From contig NZ_JABBKX010000001.1 of the NCBI RefSeq assembly GCF_012927745.1, forward strand, positions 1-64,000: 64,000 bases of DNA, given 5' to 3'. Below are positions 493 through 6,738 of this stretch, piece after piece. Position 1 is the stretch's first letter. The number at the start of each line of letters is the position of its first letter. The notes under the pieces are model-generated. The model was given only the letters and a program-made list of their open reading frames with translations, made no database searches and was not told the DNA's origin. This stretch comes from Neoroseomonas marina. Its GTDB lineage: Bacteria > Pseudomonadota > Alphaproteobacteria > Acetobacterales > Acetobacteraceae. Both the position numbers and the translations under genes were made by a program.

Positions 493-879
493 ATGCGACG
501 CTTGATCCTGCCGATGCTCGTGGCCGCCGCGGCCAGCCTGCCGGGCCTCGCCTCCGCCCAGTCAGGCGACGCTGCCGCCGGGCAGCGCGTGTTCAACCAG
601 TGCCGGGCCTGCCACACCGCGGACCAGAACGGGCGCAACGGGGTCGGGCCGAACCTGTTCGGCATCGTGGGCCGCAAGGCCGGCTCGATCGAAGGCTTCC
701 GCTATTCCGCCAACATGCGCAGCCTGGCCGATGGCGGCCTGGTGTGGTCCGAGGACCGGCTGCGGGCCTACATCGCCAACCCGAAGGCCGTCGTGCCGCA
801 GGGCAGCATGTCCTTCCCCGGCCTGCGCAACGAGACGCAGATCAACGACCTGATGGCCTACCTCGCCACGCTGAAGTGA
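493..879 (+). CDS. Periplasmic class I cytochrome c (c2/c550-like)
   Basis: A 128-residue exported mono-haem electron carrier. Residues 1-22 form a signal peptide (MRRLILPMLV...LASA), so the protein should be periplasmic. The haem attachment motif CRACH is at 37-41, and the sixth ligand is probably Met106 in GSMSFPG. The segment VGPNLFGIVGRKAG after the haem motif is typical of cytochrome c2/c550. The start is chosen at the ATG preceded by AAGGGAG; the frame stays open upstream but loses the signal peptide. It diverges from hemA, so haem supply and a haem protein share one intergenic region. The exact redox partner cannot be told from sequence. Confidence 0.93.
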   Translation: MRRLILPMLVAAAASLPGLASAQSGDAAAGQRVFNQCRACHTADQNGRNGVGPNLFGIVGRKAGSIEGFRYSANMRSLADGGLVWSEDRLRAYIANPKAVVPQGSMSFPGLRNETQINDLMAYLATLK

Positions 880-913
880 GGCGCGCGGCGGCGCTGCCGA
901 TGCGCGGCGCCGC

Positions 914-1888
914 CTATTCCTTCTCGATCCCGGCCATCTGCACCACGCGACCCCAGCGCTCGCGGTCCTCGGCCAGCATGCGGTCCATATCCTCCGGCGT
1001 GCCGCCGAGCGGCTCCGACCCCCAGGAGACCAGCCGCTCGCGGATCGCGGGCACCTTCACGATCGCATCGATCTCGGTGGCCAGGCGGCGGCGGATCTCG
1101 ATCGGCGTGCCGGCCGGGGCGCCATAGCCCATCCAGGCATTGGCCTCGTAGCCCGGCAGGCCGGCTTCTTCCATGGTCGGCACGTCGGGCAGCAGAGAGA
1201 AGCGCCGCTTCGTCCCGACCGCGAGGGCGCGCAGCCGCCCCGCGCGGAAATCCTCGAGGAAGGCGGGCGCCTGCTCGATCACCAGCTGAATGCGCCCCGC
1301 GAGCAGGTCCGTCCGCGCCGGCGCGCCGCCACGATACTGCACCATCTCGAGTTCGATCCCGCCGGCCATGGCGCGGAACATCTCGACCGTCAGGCGGGAC
1401 GCCATGCCCGAGGTCGCGAAGTTCAGGCTGCCCGGCCGCGCGCGGGCCAGCGCGATGAATTCCTGGACGTTCGCCACCGGCAGCGAGGTCGGCACCGCCA
1501 TCACATAGGGGATGTTCGCGACCATGCAGACGCCGCAGAGGTCGCGGGCCGGGTCGTAGGGCAGGTTGCGGTAGACATGCCCGTTCACTGCCATCGGTCC
1601 CGGGCTGCCGGCGAGCAGCGTGTAGCCGTCCGGGGCGGCCTTCGCGACGGCATCGGCGCCGATCACGCCGAAGGCCCCGGCGCGGTTCTCGACCACCACC
1701 TGCTGGCCGAGCGGCGCGCCCAGATGATCGGCGACGAGGCGCGTCATCAGGTCCGTCGTGCCGCCCGGCGCGAAGGGCACGATCACGCGGACGGGGCGGC
1801 TGGGGTAGCCGCCCTGACCGAAGGCGGGCTGCACAAGACCTGCGGCGGCGGTGAGGCCCAGGGCCTGGCGGCGTGTGGTGATCGTCAT
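914..1888 (-). CDS. Bug/TctC-family tripartite tricarboxylate transporter binding protein
   Basis: A 324-residue periplasmic binding protein of the Bug family (PF03401). It begins with a signal peptide carrying a twin arginine (TTRRQALGLTAAAGL, cleavage near FGQG), followed by the family hallmark YPSRPVRVIVPFAPGG. Further marks are the G-A-D-A-V-A-K-A-x-P-D-G-Y-T segment and the late PDVPTMEEAGLPGY motif. Bug proteins capture small carboxylates or other organic acids for a TctAB-type permease. No tctA/tctB lies nearby, so this is an orphan binding component. The ATG was chosen over an upstream in-frame one because it gives the signal peptide. It is downstream of gntR and has its own copy of the TTGAATTCAA palindrome upstream, so it is probably controlled by that regulator. 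Confidence 0.9.
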   Translation of the reverse strand: MTITTRRQALGLTAAAGLVQPAFGQGGYPSRPVRVIVPFAPGGTTDLMTRLVADHLGAPLGQQVVVENRAGAFGVIGADAVAKAAPDGYTLLAGSPGPMAVNGHVYRNLPYDPARDLCGVCMVANIPYVMAVPTSLPVANVQEFIALARARPGSLNFATSGMASRLTVEMFRAMAGGIELEMVQYRGGAPARTDLLAGRIQLVIEQAPAFLEDFRAGRLRALAVGTKRRFSLLPDVPTMEEAGLPGYEANAWMGYGAPAGTPIEIRRRLATEIDAIVKVPAIRERLVSWGSEPLGGTPEDMDRMLAEDRERWGRVVQMAGIEKE

Positions 1889-1967
1889 CGGCGGCTCCGG
1901 CTCGCGGCTTGGCCGGTCGTTGCCGGCGGTGTGGTGACGACTGGCGCCCTCATCCCCGATGGCAGCC

Positions 1968-1985
1968 GATTTGAATTCAATTTGC
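1968..1985. promoter_or_regulatory. Palindromic operator, copy 1 (upstream of Bug gene)
   Basis: A perfect palindrome, TTGAATTCAA at 1971-1980, sits in an AT-rich patch inside very GC-rich DNA. Read on the minus strand the wider match is AAATTGAATTCAAA. The same 14 bases recur at 2703-2716 in the gntR/monooxygenase promoter region. It lies about 83 bases upstream of the Bug gene start, a plausible promoter-proximal operator. FCD-type GntR proteins bind short palindromes of this kind, so the adjacent GntR protein is the probable ligand. Confidence 0.7.
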
Positions 1986-1996
1986 AACCGCCCTTC

Positions 1997-2698
1997 TCAG
2001 CGCTCCTTCAGCGATCGCAGCAGCCTTGCCCCCGCATCGTGCACATGCAGGCGCAGCAACAGGCCGAGCCGCTGGCCGTCGCCGTCGCGCAGGGCCCCGA
2101 GGATGTCGCGGTGTTCCCGGTTCACCTGCTCCCGGCTGTTGGCGAGGCGGCCGCCGAGCCGGATGTAACGCTCCACCCGGTTCGCCAGCACGCCGAGCAA
2201 CTCGCCCATGACCCGCATCCCGCTCGCGGCGCGGATGCGGTCGTGGAAGCGGCGGTTGTGCAGGCCGAAGGCGCGCCCGCCTTCCGGGGAGCCGGGGGGC
2301 AGCGCCTCCATGGCCAGGACCTCGGCTTCCAGCGCCACGAGATCCTCCTCGGTGCGATGCTGGGCGGCGGCCTGCCCGATGCGTTCCTCGAACAGGGCGC
2401 GGATCTCGAAGATCTCGGCGATGTCCTGCGGGTCGAGCGCGGCGACGACATAGCCGCGGCGCGGCCGATACTGCGCCAGGCCCTCGGTCTCGAGCTGCTT
2501 CAGCGCCTCGCGCACCGGCGGGCGGCTGACGCCGAGCCGGCCGGCGACATCCTCCTGCCGCAGCAGCGCGCCGGGCGGGATCGTGCCGGCGAGGATCGCC
2601 TCGCGCAGCCGCTCGGCGACGAAGGCCGGCAGGCTTTCATGGGCGTCCTGCGCGCCGGGGCGCGGTTTCGGGAGGCGGAGGTAGGGAGCACGGGTCAT
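1997..2698 (-). CDS. GntR-family transcriptional regulator (FadR/FCD type)
   Basis: A 233-residue regulator. Residues about 20-85 form the GntR winged helix: AERLREAILAGTIPPGALLRQEDVAGRLGVSRPPVREALKQL-type sequence, including the canonical SRPPVREALK recognition helix. The remainder is the helical FCD domain, which senses small organic acids, with the EIRALFEE and HNRRFHD landmarks that include metal-ligand positions. It lies between a Bug binding protein and a divergent flavin monooxygenase. Identical palindromes occur upstream of both transcription units, so it probably represses both until a substrate or intermediate binds. The ATG follows a GGAGG-rich stretch. The long open frame upstream of it is not coding. 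The ligand is unknown. Confidence 0.92.
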   Translation of the reverse strand: MTRAPYLRLPKPRPGAQDAHESLPAFVAERLREAILAGTIPPGALLRQEDVAGRLGVSRPPVREALKQLETEGLAQYRPRRGYVVAALDPQDIAEIFEIRALFEERIGQAAAQHRTEEDLVALEAEVLAMEALPPGSPEGGRAFGLHNRRFHDRIRAASGMRVMGELLGVLANRVERYIRLGGRLANSREQVNREHRDILGALRDGDGQRLGLLLRLHVHDAGARLLRSLKER

Positions 2699-2702
2699 GG
2701 CG

Positions 2703-2718
2703 AAATTGAATTCAAAAT
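2703..2718. promoter_or_regulatory. Palindromic operator, copy 2 (gntR / monooxygenase divergent promoter)
   Basis: The second copy of TTGAATTCAA (2706-2715) starts 8 bases upstream of the gntR ATG and lies about 65 bases upstream of the divergent monooxygenase start. The shared core with copy 1 is AAATTGAATTCAAA in opposite orientation. Its position immediately at the gntR start suggests autorepression together with control of the monooxygenase. Confidence 0.7.
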
Positions 2719-2779
2719 GCTGGACAGCCTCGCGCAATGCAAGCAGCCTCTGGCCCGACACCGCGACCGGAGCCCCCGC

Positions 2780-4108
2780 ATGCCGATGATCCTCGCCGCC
2801 AACGCCAATGCCCAGGGCAGCCATGTCGGGGAATGGCGCCACCCCGATGCGTGGGAGCGGCCGGCGGCGAACATCGCCAACGCGCTGCGCCTCGCGCAGA
2901 TCGCGGAGGCCGGGAAGTTCGACCTGCTCTTCCTCGCCGACGGCAACGGCGTGCGGCAGATGGACAAGCCGGATCTCTTCGCCGCGACCTCGCCCTCCGA
3001 CCGGCCTGGCGTCTTCGAGCCCGTCACGCTGCTCTCGGCCCTCGCGATGGCGACGCAGCACATCGGCCTCGTCGCCACGACGACCACGACCTATGATGAG
3101 CCCTTCCACGTCGCCCGCCGCTTCGCCTCCCTCGACCACATCAGCGGCGGGCGGGCGGGGTGGAACCTGGTCACCACCTCCAATCCCGGCGATGCGCTGA
3201 ACTTCAGCCATGCGGAGCATGTCGCGCGCGACGAGCGGTACGAGCGCGCCAACGAATTCGCCGACGTCGTGAAGGGGCTGTGGGATTCCTGGGCCGACGA
3301 CGCCTTCCCGCAGGACAAGGCGACGGGACGCTTCCTGGACCCTTCCAAGGTCCAGGTGCTCGGCCACAAGGGCAAGCACTTCCAGGTCGCGGGGCCGCTG
3401 AACGCACCGCGGCCGCCACAGGGATACCCGGTGGTCTTCTCGGCCGGTCAGTCTGAGGCCGGGCGCGACCTGTCCGCCCGCCACGCCGACTGCATCTTCG
3501 CGATCGAGGCGACGCTGCCCTCCGCGCAGGCGCTCTATGCCGACTTCAAGGGGCGGCTTGCGAAGTACGGCCGTGGCCCGGACGACCTCAAGATCCTGAG
3601 CGGTGTGACCATCATCGTCGGCGAGACGGCGCAACAGGCCGAGGACATCGCCGGGGAGCTCGACGACCTGGTGCCGCCGCCGGTCGGCGTCGACTACCTT
3701 TCCAAGATGGTCGGGCGGAGCATGAAGGACTATCCGCTCGACGGCCCCATGCCCGACTTCGAGGAGGAGCATGTCGGCCATACCGGCATCGGGCGCGCCA
3801 TCGTGAAGGTGGCGAAGGAACAGGGGCTGACGGTACGCCAGACCTACCGGCGCATCCTGCCGCAGATGGCGGGCAACATGTTCAAGGGCGACGCGCGGCA
3901 GGTCGCCGACGTGATGGAGGAATGGTACCGCGGCAAGGGCTGCGACGGCTTCATGATCGCGGCGCCCGTGGTGCCGACGGGCCTCGAGCGCTTCACCCGC
4001 CTGGTGGTACCGGAACTGCAGCGCCGCGGGCTGTTCCGGCGGGAGTATGAGGGGCGGACGCTGCGGGAGAACCTGGGGCTGAAGCGCCCGCCGCGCCGGT
4101 TTGGGTGA
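2780..4108 (+). CDS. LLM-class flavin-dependent monooxygenase (NtaA/SnaA/DmoA-like)
   Basis: A 442-residue luciferase-like monooxygenase. It has the family's pattern of EAGKFDLLFLADG near residue 50, IGLVATTTTTYDEPFHVARRFASLDHISGGRAGWN around 100-130, and GYPVVFSAGQSEAGRDLSARHADCIF after the insertion that marks the NtaA/DszA branch. These enzymes use FMNH2 from a separate reductase plus O2 to cleave C-N or C-S bonds in compounds such as nitrilotriacetate, dimethyl sulfide or sulfones. No flavin reductase is adjacent. The start is the ATG at the MPMILAAN end, with GGAG upstream; another in-frame ATG 63 bases earlier is possible. It diverges from gntR with a shared palindrome, so it is probably induced with the Bug protein. 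The substrate is unknown. Confidence 0.88.
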   Translation: MPMILAANANAQGSHVGEWRHPDAWERPAANIANALRLAQIAEAGKFDLLFLADGNGVRQMDKPDLFAATSPSDRPGVFEPVTLLSALAMATQHIGLVATTTTTYDEPFHVARRFASLDHISGGRAGWNLVTTSNPGDALNFSHAEHVARDERYERANEFADVVKGLWDSWADDAFPQDKATGRFLDPSKVQVLGHKGKHFQVAGPLNAPRPPQGYPVVFSAGQSEAGRDLSARHADCIFAIEATLPSAQALYADFKGRLAKYGRGPDDLKILSGVTIIVGETAQQAEDIAGELDDLVPPPVGVDYLSKMVGRSMKDYPLDGPMPDFEEEHVGHTGIGRAIVKVAKEQGLTVRQTYRRILPQMAGNMFKGDARQVADVMEEWYRGKGCDGFMIAAPVVPTGLERFTRLVVPELQRRGLFRREYEGRTLRENLGLKRPPRRFG

Positions 4109-4120
4109 GCCGGGCCTGGA

Positions 4121-5326
4121 TCACGCAGTGCGGCGTGCCAGGATACCCGCGCGCCGCAGGACAAGAGCGAGCACGATGGCTGCCGGGATCGGGCCGAGGC
4201 TGATGCCGAAGGTCTGACCGATGTACATCGTGGGCGCCGGTAGAATGATGGCCGTCGCCAGGGCGAACTTCTCCCAGGCCAGAAATCCGGCCTGCCTCGC
4301 CTGCGCAAGGCACCAGAACATGGGCACCAGCAGGATGGGCAAGTCGTAGACGAAGACATAAGGCGTCACGAGGGGGGCCGCCGCGGCCATCGCCGCCACC
4401 TCGCCCTGGCCGCCCGGCCGGCGCGTGACCACCCACAGGGCTGCTGCGACGGCCCCGAGCGCGACGACCAGGTGAACGCCCATCGCCACGCCCCGGGGCG
4501 CGCCGAGTAGTTGCAACGAAGCAAACAGGCTCTGGACTTGCCACAGCGGCACGACCCCGTCCCCGCTCAGGCCCTCACCCGCAACCCGAAGTGCCGACGC
4601 AAAGGCCGTCCAGCTCTCCCAGCCCAGGACCATGGAGCTCAACGCGACCCAGCCGATCCCGGTCGCCACGGCGAAGGCGATGACCTGCCAGCGCCGCCCG
4701 ACCAGCAGCGCCGGCAGCACGACCAGACCGAGTTGCGGCTTGAATGCGAGCGTTGCGATCAACGCACCGGCGGCCATGGGTCGCCGATCGAGCGTCAGTC
4801 CAGCGGCCGCGAAAAGGGATGCGGTCACGAAGCCCGTTTGCCCGGCAACGGCGACGAGCAAGGTGGCGGGCGAGAACGCCACAAGCGCGATGATCGCCGG
4901 CCAGGGCAAGACGCGGTACCGGGACAGGATCGCCACGAAGGCCCCACCCGTGATCAGCACCCACAGGCCGAAAGCGACCTTGTAGGACAGCAGAGCCAGG
5001 GGCAGGCAGAGGAGCAGGAAGGGCGGCGGATAGAAGAACGGCAGCCGGCCCGACGGCATGATGGCCTGCTGCACGGCGCCATGCTGCTGCAGGTCCCACG
5101 CATCGACCGGCCGTCCGTCGAGCGCGAGGACCGATGCGGTGTAGAAACTCAGGAAATCCGTCGGGGCACCGACCCCGTCCGCAGCAAAGACGCGGACGAA
5201 GCCGGCGAAAAGATAGAAGGCCGGCAGCAGCGCCAGCAGTGCCCCGTAGACCGCCGCGCGCCGGGCCGTCAGCCAGCGCGCGTCGCGCAACCAGGACCAC
5301 GCGCCACCGCTGGGTCCAGCTGCCAC
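4121..5326 (-). CDS. GT87-like multi-pass membrane glycosyltransferase (DUF2029)
   Basis: A 401-residue membrane protein with roughly ten hydrophobic segments. After the first transmembrane helix comes a periplasmic loop with GAPTDFLSFYTASVLALDGRPVDAWDLQQH, then SGRLPFFYPPPFLLLCLPLALL. The D-F-x-x-F/Y-x-A-x-x-A-L pattern followed by F-x-Y-P-P is characteristic of the DUF2029/GT87 family, related to polyprenol-phosphate-mannose-dependent mannosyltransferases. The family works on lipid-linked sugars at the outer face of the inner membrane, but donor and acceptor here are unknown. It starts 5 bases after the hydroxy-acid oxidase stop, so the two are probably co-transcribed, although no functional link is obvious. 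Its stop lies just beyond the convergent monooxygenase. Confidence 0.8.
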   Translation of the reverse strand: MAAGPSGGAWSWLRDARWLTARRAAVYGALLALLPAFYLFAGFVRVFAADGVGAPTDFLSFYTASVLALDGRPVDAWDLQQHGAVQQAIMPSGRLPFFYPPPFLLLCLPLALLSYKVAFGLWVLITGGAFVAILSRYRVLPWPAIIALVAFSPATLLVAVAGQTGFVTASLFAAAGLTLDRRPMAAGALIATLAFKPQLGLVVLPALLVGRRWQVIAFAVATGIGWVALSSMVLGWESWTAFASALRVAGEGLSGDGVVPLWQVQSLFASLQLLGAPRGVAMGVHLVVALGAVAAALWVVTRRPGGQGEVAAMAAAAPLVTPYVFVYDLPILLVPMFWCLAQARQAGFLAWEKFALATAIILPAPTMYIGQTFGISLGPIPAAIVLALVLRRAGILARRTA

Positions 5327-5331
5327 GGTGG

Positions 5332-6567
5332 CTAGCGAACCTTCACCAGGAATTCCGGCCCGAGCTGATCCATCGCATTCGCGCCGATCAGCGCAAGGTC
5401 GCGATGGACCTCTTCCTGCAGCAGGTCGATCGCGCGCTCGACGCCGGGCTGACCGCGCACCACGGCCGCGCTCAGCATGGGCCGCCCGACGAAGACGAAG
5501 GCCGCGCCAAGCGCATAGGCCTTCATCACGTCCGTCCCGCGCCGGATGCCGCCGTCGTAGATCACGGGCAGGCCGCCCGCGACCTTCACGATCTCGGGCA
5601 GCATGCGCAGGCCGGACACCGCGCCGTCGAGCTGCCGCCCGCCATGGTTCGACACCATGAAGCCGTCGACGCCGATCTCCTTCGCACGCACCACGTCATC
5701 CGGGTGCAGCACGCCCTTGATCAGCAGCTTGCCGGGGAAGCGCTTGCGGATGAGTTCCAGATGCGGCCAGGACAGCCCGTCGCGCGCGCCGAAGGCGCGT
5801 TCGAGCTCGCGCGAGAGGATGGGCGGGCCGCGGCCGGCGTCCATGTTCTCGAAATACGGCATGCCGTGGTTCTTCAGCGTCCGGAACCAGGTGCCAAAGG
5901 CCCATTGGGGGTGCGTCGCCCCCTGCCAGAACAGCTTGAAGGTCGGCTTCAGCGGGATGGTGTAGCCGTTGCGGATGTTGTTCTCGCGGTTCGAGGAAAC
6001 CTGCACGTCCACCGTGAGGACGAAGGTCTTGAACCCCGCCGCGATGACGCGGTCGACCAGCGGCTCGATGCGGGACGGCTCGCCCGGCAGGTAGGCCTGG
6101 TACCAGGCGTCGGGGTTGGCCTTCGCGATCTCCTCGAGCTTGATGAGCGAGGAGGCCGACATGATCATCGGGATGTTCTTGGCGCGCGCCGCCTGGGTCA
6201 GCACCAGGTCGCCGCGATAGGCCATCAGCGCGGAGGATCCCATCGGCGGGATGCCGAAGGGGGCGCTGTACTCCTTGCCGAACAGGCTGACGCGCGTGTG
6301 CCGCGACCGCGCATCGACCAGGCAACGGGGGATGAAGCCCCATTCGGCGAATGCACGACGATTGTCCTCGAGCGACCAGTCCGTCTCCACGCCGCCCGCG
6401 AGGTAGCCGTGCAGCATCTTCGGCAGATGCTTCGCGGCCGCACGCTCGAAATCCGCGAGCGAGAGGAACTTCGCGAGATGCGGCGGCACCGGCGGCGCCG
6501 AACGCTTCTGGGACAGGGCCTGGGTCGTGGCCGGCGCGCGGGACTGCGCAGGGCCTTCAGCGGTCAT
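5332..6567 (-). CDS. FMN-dependent alpha-hydroxy-acid oxidizing protein (lactate dehydrogenase/glycolate oxidase family)
   Basis: A 411-residue TIM-barrel flavoprotein of the lldD/glycolate oxidase/mandelate dehydrogenase family. Near the amino end is LSLADFERAAAKHLPKMLHGYLAGGVETDWS, the usual first FMN-proximal segment. The catalytic histidine is in VSNHGGRQLDGA, followed by the phosphate-binding GGIRRGTDVMKAYALGA. It oxidises an L-2-hydroxy acid to the 2-oxo acid, passing electrons to quinone or O2. About 30 poorly conserved residues precede the domain; the ATG at 6567 is the best start. It lies upstream of the GT87 gene on the same strand and diverges from an SDR gene. The substrate is not predictable beyond the class. 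Confidence 0.9.
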   Translation of the reverse strand: MTAEGPAQSRAPATTQALSQKRSAPPVPPHLAKFLSLADFERAAAKHLPKMLHGYLAGGVETDWSLEDNRRAFAEWGFIPRCLVDARSRHTRVSLFGKEYSAPFGIPPMGSSALMAYRGDLVLTQAARAKNIPMIMSASSLIKLEEIAKANPDAWYQAYLPGEPSRIEPLVDRVIAAGFKTFVLTVDVQVSSNRENNIRNGYTIPLKPTFKLFWQGATHPQWAFGTWFRTLKNHGMPYFENMDAGRGPPILSRELERAFGARDGLSWPHLELIRKRFPGKLLIKGVLHPDDVVRAKEIGVDGFMVSNHGGRQLDGAVSGLRMLPEIVKVAGGLPVIYDGGIRRGTDVMKAYALGAAFVFVGRPMLSAAVVRGQPGVERAIDLLQEEVHRDLALIGANAMDQLGPEFLVKVR

Positions 6568-6738
6568 GGACGGGTCACCCGGAGTTGATTTCACGCAATT
6601 CTGGCCGCTAAGGCCCGGCGAGGCCAGAGCCCCAGGCGCGCGCAGCCCGCAAGGCAGGGCCGCCGGGCAACGGAACCACCTTCTGTCCGGCTGCCGCCCG
6701 GCCTGCGAGGATGCGGCCGCCAGACACGGAGGACCCGC

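Follow-up and report, generated by a model that had tools for sequence, protein, structure and literature searches.

The locus examined here, in Neoroseomonas marina, encodes a Bug-type binding protein, a GntR regulator, and a flavin monooxygenase, and it carries the same palindrome on either side of the regulator gene. This arrangement raises the question of whether the regulator controls both of its neighbors as one local regulon. We addressed the question by computational analysis of a 64,000-nucleotide stretch of DNA (hereafter called the window), of the whole genome, and of the genomes of related bacteria.

Genes of the locus

The central gene, gntR (positions 1997–2698, reverse strand), encodes an FCD-GntR transcriptional regulator of 233 aa, as judged by matches to the Pfam families GntR (65.1 bits; cut-off 27) and FCD (78.2 bits; cut-off 24.3). 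The best NCBIfam name for this protein, phnR_burk, fell short of its cut-off (107.6 versus 271.5), and the name was therefore not used. The Bug/TctC-type binding protein (914–1888, reverse strand) matches Pfam TctC, PF03401, with 220.2 bits (cut-off 27); its leader appears twin-arginine-like by eye, and its closest PDB sequences are 5oei and the terephthalate-binding protein 8hka. No TctA permease gene lies beside it. The four TctA genes of the genome are all located on contigs other than that of the window, and the Bug protein is therefore an orphan. A complete tripartite tricarboxylate transporter locus requires TctA beside the binding protein, and the present locus is not of that kind.

The third gene (2780–4108, forward strand) had been predicted to encode a flavin monooxygenase. 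This assignment held and could be narrowed to the luciferase-like, FMN-dependent NtaA/DmoA family (TIGR03860, 529.6 bits; cut-off 279.7), and the closest PDB sequences are YtnJ, MoxC, DszA, and the nitrilotriacetate (NTA)/EDTA monooxygenases. Further along the window, a GT87 gene (4124–5326) sits between the monooxygenase gene and an FMN_dh gene of the FMN-dependent alpha-hydroxyacid oxidase type (5335–6603, reverse strand). The latter is a neighbor past the monooxygenase in all five genomes of the genus that carry the three-gene module described below.

Two copies of a rare palindrome flank gntR

The original prediction placed the same 14 bases, in opposite orientation, upstream of Bug and in the gntR/monooxygenase promoter region. 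Exact matches to AAATTGAATTCAAA were indeed present at 1970–1983 on the reverse strand (copy 1) and at 2703–2716 on the forward strand (copy 2), and we treat both as putative operators. Copy 1 lies between gntR and Bug, in the 108 nt that separate the gntR stop codon from the Bug start, and its core (1971–1980) is 82 nt ahead of the Bug start codon. The 81 nt separating the divergent gntR and monooxygenase genes contain copy 2, whose core (2706–2715) is 7 nt ahead of the start codon of gntR and 64 nt ahead of that of the monooxygenase gene. The two copies are opposite on the chromosome, but each points the same way relative to its structural gene (Bug or monooxygenase).

A scan of the window for AAATTGAATTCAAA with up to three mismatches returned four rows, which are these two places read on either strand, where shuffles gave an expectation of 0.21; this is consistent with the claim that no further copy occurs nearby. 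In the whole genome (5,153,233 bp, 43 contigs), the 10-bp core TTGAATTCAA is found at the two places only, and a backwards-read control gave none. When up to three mismatches to the 14-mer were allowed, the genome gave 26 rows, four of which are the twin sites, and the reversed control gave one row. The remaining 22 rows each have at least two mismatches, and one alone (C12:513307) keeps both TTG and CAA. The 14-mer is thus not frequent at unrelated sites, which was the concern behind the genome-wide motif scan proposed with the original prediction.

Chance had been judged a very unlikely origin for such a repeat in GC-rich DNA, and the numbers agree. Markov models of order 0 to 3 trained on the window predict 0.12–0.39 copies of the 10-mer per genome, and two copies 735 bp apart are therefore far beyond chance. 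The window has a G+C content of 71%, and among its 179 perfect 10-bp palindromes only the twin sites contain eight or more A/T.

A larger regulon was considered and set aside, as no second strong site emerged in the genome from searches with the core, with related cores (TTGAAKWCAAW), or with three mismatches. One weak candidate, CAATTGAAGCCAAA, at C12:513307 (L147 1501–1514) of the same genome has three mismatches and stands just ahead of what appears by eye to be an Lrp/AsnC-like frame. In the sister and outgroup genomes, related cores occur at 14 further places. Eleven of the 14 were read, and several of these fall within reading frames or next to transposase-like genes, as judged by eye. 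When the three proteins were searched by tblastn against these 11 places and L147, the single match was to a 46% Bug relative, roughly 1.7 kb away from a related-core place of genome G007 that lies within another frame. One of the places, G029:C1:196032 (L200 2533), is a lone TTGAATTCAA roughly 10 bp ahead of an unrelated frame.

Conservation of the sites and genes

Close relatives of the three proteins are encoded by the same five of 35 same-genus genomes (G000, G010, G007, G001, and G029), with identities of at least 83% for the regulator and at least 86% for both Bug and the monooxygenase; other monooxygenase matches in the genus search have at most 61% identity. Both sites were found in all five of these module genomes; N. 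oryzicola KCTC 22478 is a strain that carries the pair. When the five sequences of the gntR gap were anchored on the core, the core plus two bases per side proved invariant at 14 of 14 columns versus 10 of 51 others, and the corresponding values for the Bug gap were 12 of 14 versus 10 of 72. With a gapped alignment, 33 of 71 and 39 of 80 of the remaining columns in the two gaps are invariant. By these measures the sites stand out, though the gaps around them are half conserved in the five genomes. Because the five module genomes are related, they do not represent five independent observations. A parallel change in a genome of another genus, G200, is stronger evidence than this within-genus footprint.

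G200 came from a family sample of 397 genomes, which yielded four further regulators with 48–64% identity. Its gene order is monooxygenase, gntR, Bug, with 64% identity for the regulator and 82% for both Bug and the monooxygenase. Both of its sites read TTGAAGACAA, such that the copies differ from those of the window, yet their cores are identical to each other. This is the one other genus in which the family sample revealed twin sites. In G037, the monooxygenase and Bug genes are side by side and divergent from gntR, and one site, TTGAAGACAA, lies between Bug and gntR. In G234, TTGAATACAA is found between Bug and gntR, and the 17 kb read contain no monooxygenase relative; G393 has a regulator with TTGAAGACAA but no Bug or monooxygenase relative within the 18 kb read. 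A site of this type is located upstream of gntR in all nine genomes of the regulator alignment described below (at least 44% identity over the alignment), and such sites accompany relatives of the regulator in four genera.

The parallel change in G200 and the single G037 site indicate that the sites track the regulator and the promoters beside it. Sequence comparison thus supports one local GntR regulon that joins an uptake protein to an oxidase, as predicted: the sites and genes co-occur in the same five of 35 genus genomes, both G200 copies are altered alike, and a single site is present in G037, where Bug and the monooxygenase adjoin.

Two other gene groups were observed in these genomes. 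In G008, a 61% monooxygenase relative belongs to a run of genes (L167 6809–12402) with another Bug (39%) and a SnoaL-like protein identified by Pfam, along with an aldehyde dehydrogenase and a quinone reductase recognized by eye; we saw no GntR related to the present one next to it. Near the regulator in both G393 (L159 10143–13315) and G037 (L161 2894–5979) there is a pair of genes for an M81/MlrC-type metallopeptidase and a family-5 binding protein. The pair is shared by the two genera with BLAST identities of 78% and 76%, and the Pfam assignments were made on the L161 copies.

Beyond these close relatives, 20 of 75 regulator-relative loci have a TTG-N4-CAA-type site near the start, where letter shuffles gave a mean of 0.83 and a maximum of 3; the 20 take in duplicate loci of the same genomes as well as several remote regulators whose sites have other centers, such as TTGTATACAA. 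Most relatives with 26–45% identity among the 75 loci have no such site, nor does the G008 regulator (48% in a local segment; 39% in the genus search) near its start. A class sample of 385 genomes contributed 12 places in 11 genomes besides the window's own. At four of these 12 loci, ATTGGATACAAT or ATTGGATCCAAT occurs close to the estimated start, four further loci have a half-like site by eye, the sole candidate at L221 is a G+C-rich TTG-N4-CAA far upstream, and none was seen at the rest. No Bug or monooxygenase relative was detected at E 1e-10 within the 1.5-kb flanks of the 12 places, and Pfam searches of 10 neighboring frames gave varied families, including ornithine cyclodeaminase, SBP_bac_5, molybdenum hydroxylase, and a ring-hydroxylating beta subunit. 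In our reading, this style of operator predates the Bug/gntR/monooxygenase module. Spread by plasmids was also considered and rejected: among 72,556 plasmid records there was no regulator relative at E 1e-40, and monooxygenase relatives at E 1e-100 occurred in 457 records, all below 60% identity.

Predicted fold group of the regulator

An AlphaFold2 model of the GntR protein (mean pLDDT 86) has six effector-domain helices, comprising residues 90–114, 117–132, 138–159, 162–181, 186–204, and 208–232. Because six rather than seven effector-domain helices are described for the VanR group of FCD regulators (PMC7797058), the regulator is, by its predicted fold, a member of the VanR group and not of FadR proper. 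The original description of a FadR-type GntR therefore stands for the FCD family, to which the Pfam match assigns the protein, and falls for FadR in the strict sense. Foldseek matches of the model include Atu1419, PmiR, McbR, and AlkR.

In an alignment of nine regulators (44–97% identity to that of the window), the segments R47–D50, S58–L66, and R78–A86 are invariant. Residues N148, H152, H196, and H218 are likewise invariant in all nine. Metal-binding members of the VanR group use three His residues and one Asn or Asp (PMC7797058), and these four residues may form an equivalent metal site.

Putative promoters and a model for control

Alignment of the five module genomes suggested positions for two promoters. 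For Bug, a putative −35 element TTGCAA (1982–1987, reverse strand) with its first three bases invariant in all five genomes is separated by 17 bp from a putative −10 element TGCCAT (1959–1964, reverse strand), whose last two bases are invariant in all five. For gntR, a putative −35 element TTGCAT (2737–2742, reverse strand; invariant in all five) precedes a putative −10 element CATTTT (2714–2719, reverse strand) with a spacer of 17 bp (18 in G001). With these placements, the core of copy 1 would reside in the spacer between the −35 and −10 elements of Bug, and copy 2 would overlap the −10 element of gntR, positions that would fit simple steric repression with autoregulation. A strict sigma-70 consensus scan of 860–4200 identified no promoter, and none could be placed for the monooxygenase gene.

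The hexamers are not the sole conserved pieces, since the five genomes also share invariant stretches closer to the start of Bug and in the gap that separates gntR from the monooxygenase gene. A second conserved block, CCGGCAAYGACCGG (1913–1926, reverse strand), lies in the Bug leader of all five module loci of the genus, and a search of the window with up to one mismatch matched only this place. Between the monooxygenase gene and gntR (2721–2750), GCTGCTTGCAT and CTGTCCA, read on the gntR strand, are invariant in all five and perhaps form part of a promoter for the monooxygenase, gntR, or both.

From these comparisons we consider it very likely that the palindromes are operators of the GntR protein encoded between them, which would repress its own gene, Bug, and the monooxygenase gene until an organic-acid-like ligand binds. 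Ligand-free repressor would occupy both sites. At 2703–2716 it would mask the −10 region of gntR just upstream of the monooxygenase gene and thereby repress both itself and that gene, and at 1970–1983, between the −35 and −10 elements of Bug, it would block RNA polymerase. Once the FCD pocket holds a small ligand resembling an organic acid, the repressor would leave the DNA, and the derepressed cell would make a periplasmic binding protein for capture of the substrate together with a flavin monooxygenase for its oxidation. We infer repression, and its relief by an organic acid, from the regulator family, on which basis the ligand is probably a carboxylate.

The proposed circuit provides a testable operator for an uncharacterized VanR-group regulator. 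It also ties an orphan Bug protein to a specific oxygenase and so offers a route to both the Bug ligand and the NtaA-type substrate. In addition, TTGAATTCAA, TTGAAGACAA, and TTGAATACAA make up a small natural operator series beside regulators with the same DNA-reading segments.

Alternative explanations

One tetramer might bridge both operators and loop out the repressor gene, as has been proposed for Atu1419, which would make repression of Bug and the monooxygenase cooperative. Tetrameric Atu1419 is among the top-ranked solved folds found by Foldseek, and the core is common to both sites in each of the six twin-site genomes. According to PMC7797058, Atu1419 has identical 10-bp palindromes 190 bp apart that overlap a −10 element or sit between −10 and −35, with loops visible by electron microscopy. 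However, the site spacings are 735, 735, 784, 729, 957, and (in G200) about 737 bp, and the absence of a shared helical phase argues against a tightly constrained loop. There would also be a gene inside the loop, and near gntR a single site of this type is present in G037 and likewise in G234. We consider looping unlikely. An extended version places gntR inside its own loop, with a VanR-group tetramer on same-core palindromes about 735 bp apart coupling the uptake and oxygenase genes, and adds operator drift from a canonical ATTGTATACAAT-like ancestor through the half-changed ATTGTMTTCAAT to ATTGAATTCAAT, which is fully symmetric and non-canonical, with no change in the DNA-reading segments. 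This combination seems to us quite unlikely.

We regard as improbable the proposal that GntR represses itself and one neighbor only, the other site being a duplication relic or weak. In G037 and G234 a single site close to gntR suffices. Bug also has the same direction as gntR, so that copy 1 might simply be internal to a gntR–Bug transcript. In contrast, copies 1 and 2 have equally conserved cores, and the core of copy 1 occurs in all six loci with this gene order and shares the G200 core change; moreover, the invariant TTG and AT at −35/−10 spacing around copy 1 suggest that Bug has its own promoter.

The palindromes could instead be bound by another factor or be AT-rich promoter sequence unconnected to this GntR. 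GAATTC occurs 20 times in the window, and 19 other same-genus genomes have 5–13 copies of the 10-mer. In those 19, no relative of the regulator exceeds 36% identity (search at E 1e-20), which means that the 10-mer by itself is not diagnostic. Three of the five module genomes, however, have no further copy of the core, and G007 and G029 have a single additional place apiece. Sites of this kind also go with relatives of the regulator in the four genera noted above. We judge this explanation highly improbable. A restriction site (GAATTC) as the explanation was dropped because G200 retains the site without GAATTC.

Comparison with known systems

Operation of the palindromes by the GntR protein encoded between them remains our preferred reading, and it can be set against several described regulators. 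The Bug/NtaA/GntR module is described in no title or abstract that we found in the open-licence PMC literature. Among the text matches listed there, one phage paper (PMC5377504) contains both the 10-mer and the word gntR, and four others with the 10-mer and a 12-mer carry no mention of GntR.

Atu1419 of Agrobacterium fabrum is, like the regulator studied here, a VanR-group FCD-GntR protein with local catabolic targets (PMC7797058), with 24–25% identity between the two in the fold alignment. The same source describes a tetramer, a metal site of three His and an Asn or Asp, for which our protein may have an equivalent, and identical 10-bp palindromes that recur either across a −10 element or in the −35/−10 spacer, as the putative promoters of the window would also have. 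Unlike the window, Atu1419 has the palindrome ATGTATACAT, with its copies in one intergenic region.

For the FadR subfamily, Suvorova et al. (2015, PMC4494728) describe TKGT/ACMA boxes in which 2 or 3 nt separate GT from AC. The window core, TTGA-AT-TCAA, has no GT/AC pairs and departs from this consensus (TKGT-N2/3-ACMA). The MdcY, PrpR, and HypR operators, which have the 2-nt spacing, resemble the window site as AT-rich palindromes with half-sites two bases apart in GT/AC numbering, and they too are found in divergons with the regulator gene, but they keep TKGT...ACMA where the window has TTGA...TCAA on both sides (PMC4494728). The sites of G200, G393, G037, and G234 have one half TTGT and the other half TTGA.

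The ATTG-N4-CAAT geometry without GT/AC is also that of ATTGGATCCAAT, which we take to be the operator of the Caulobacter vanillate repressor VanR and whose center is GATC where that of the window is AATT. Caulobacter VanR targets the vanillate demethylase genes, whereas the neighbors here are Bug and an NtaA/DmoA monooxygenase, and the Caulobacter regulon is not known to include Bug or NtaA-type genes. The 12 letters ATTGGATCCAAT appear, without being named, in the inserts of vanillate-driven reporters (PMC6538847). From the letters of these operators, we read the sites as belonging to an ATTG-N4-CAAT operator clade within the FCD regulators rather than to a new kind, and the locus as what appears to be a tidy, conserved instance of known local GntR control in which no step would be surprising.
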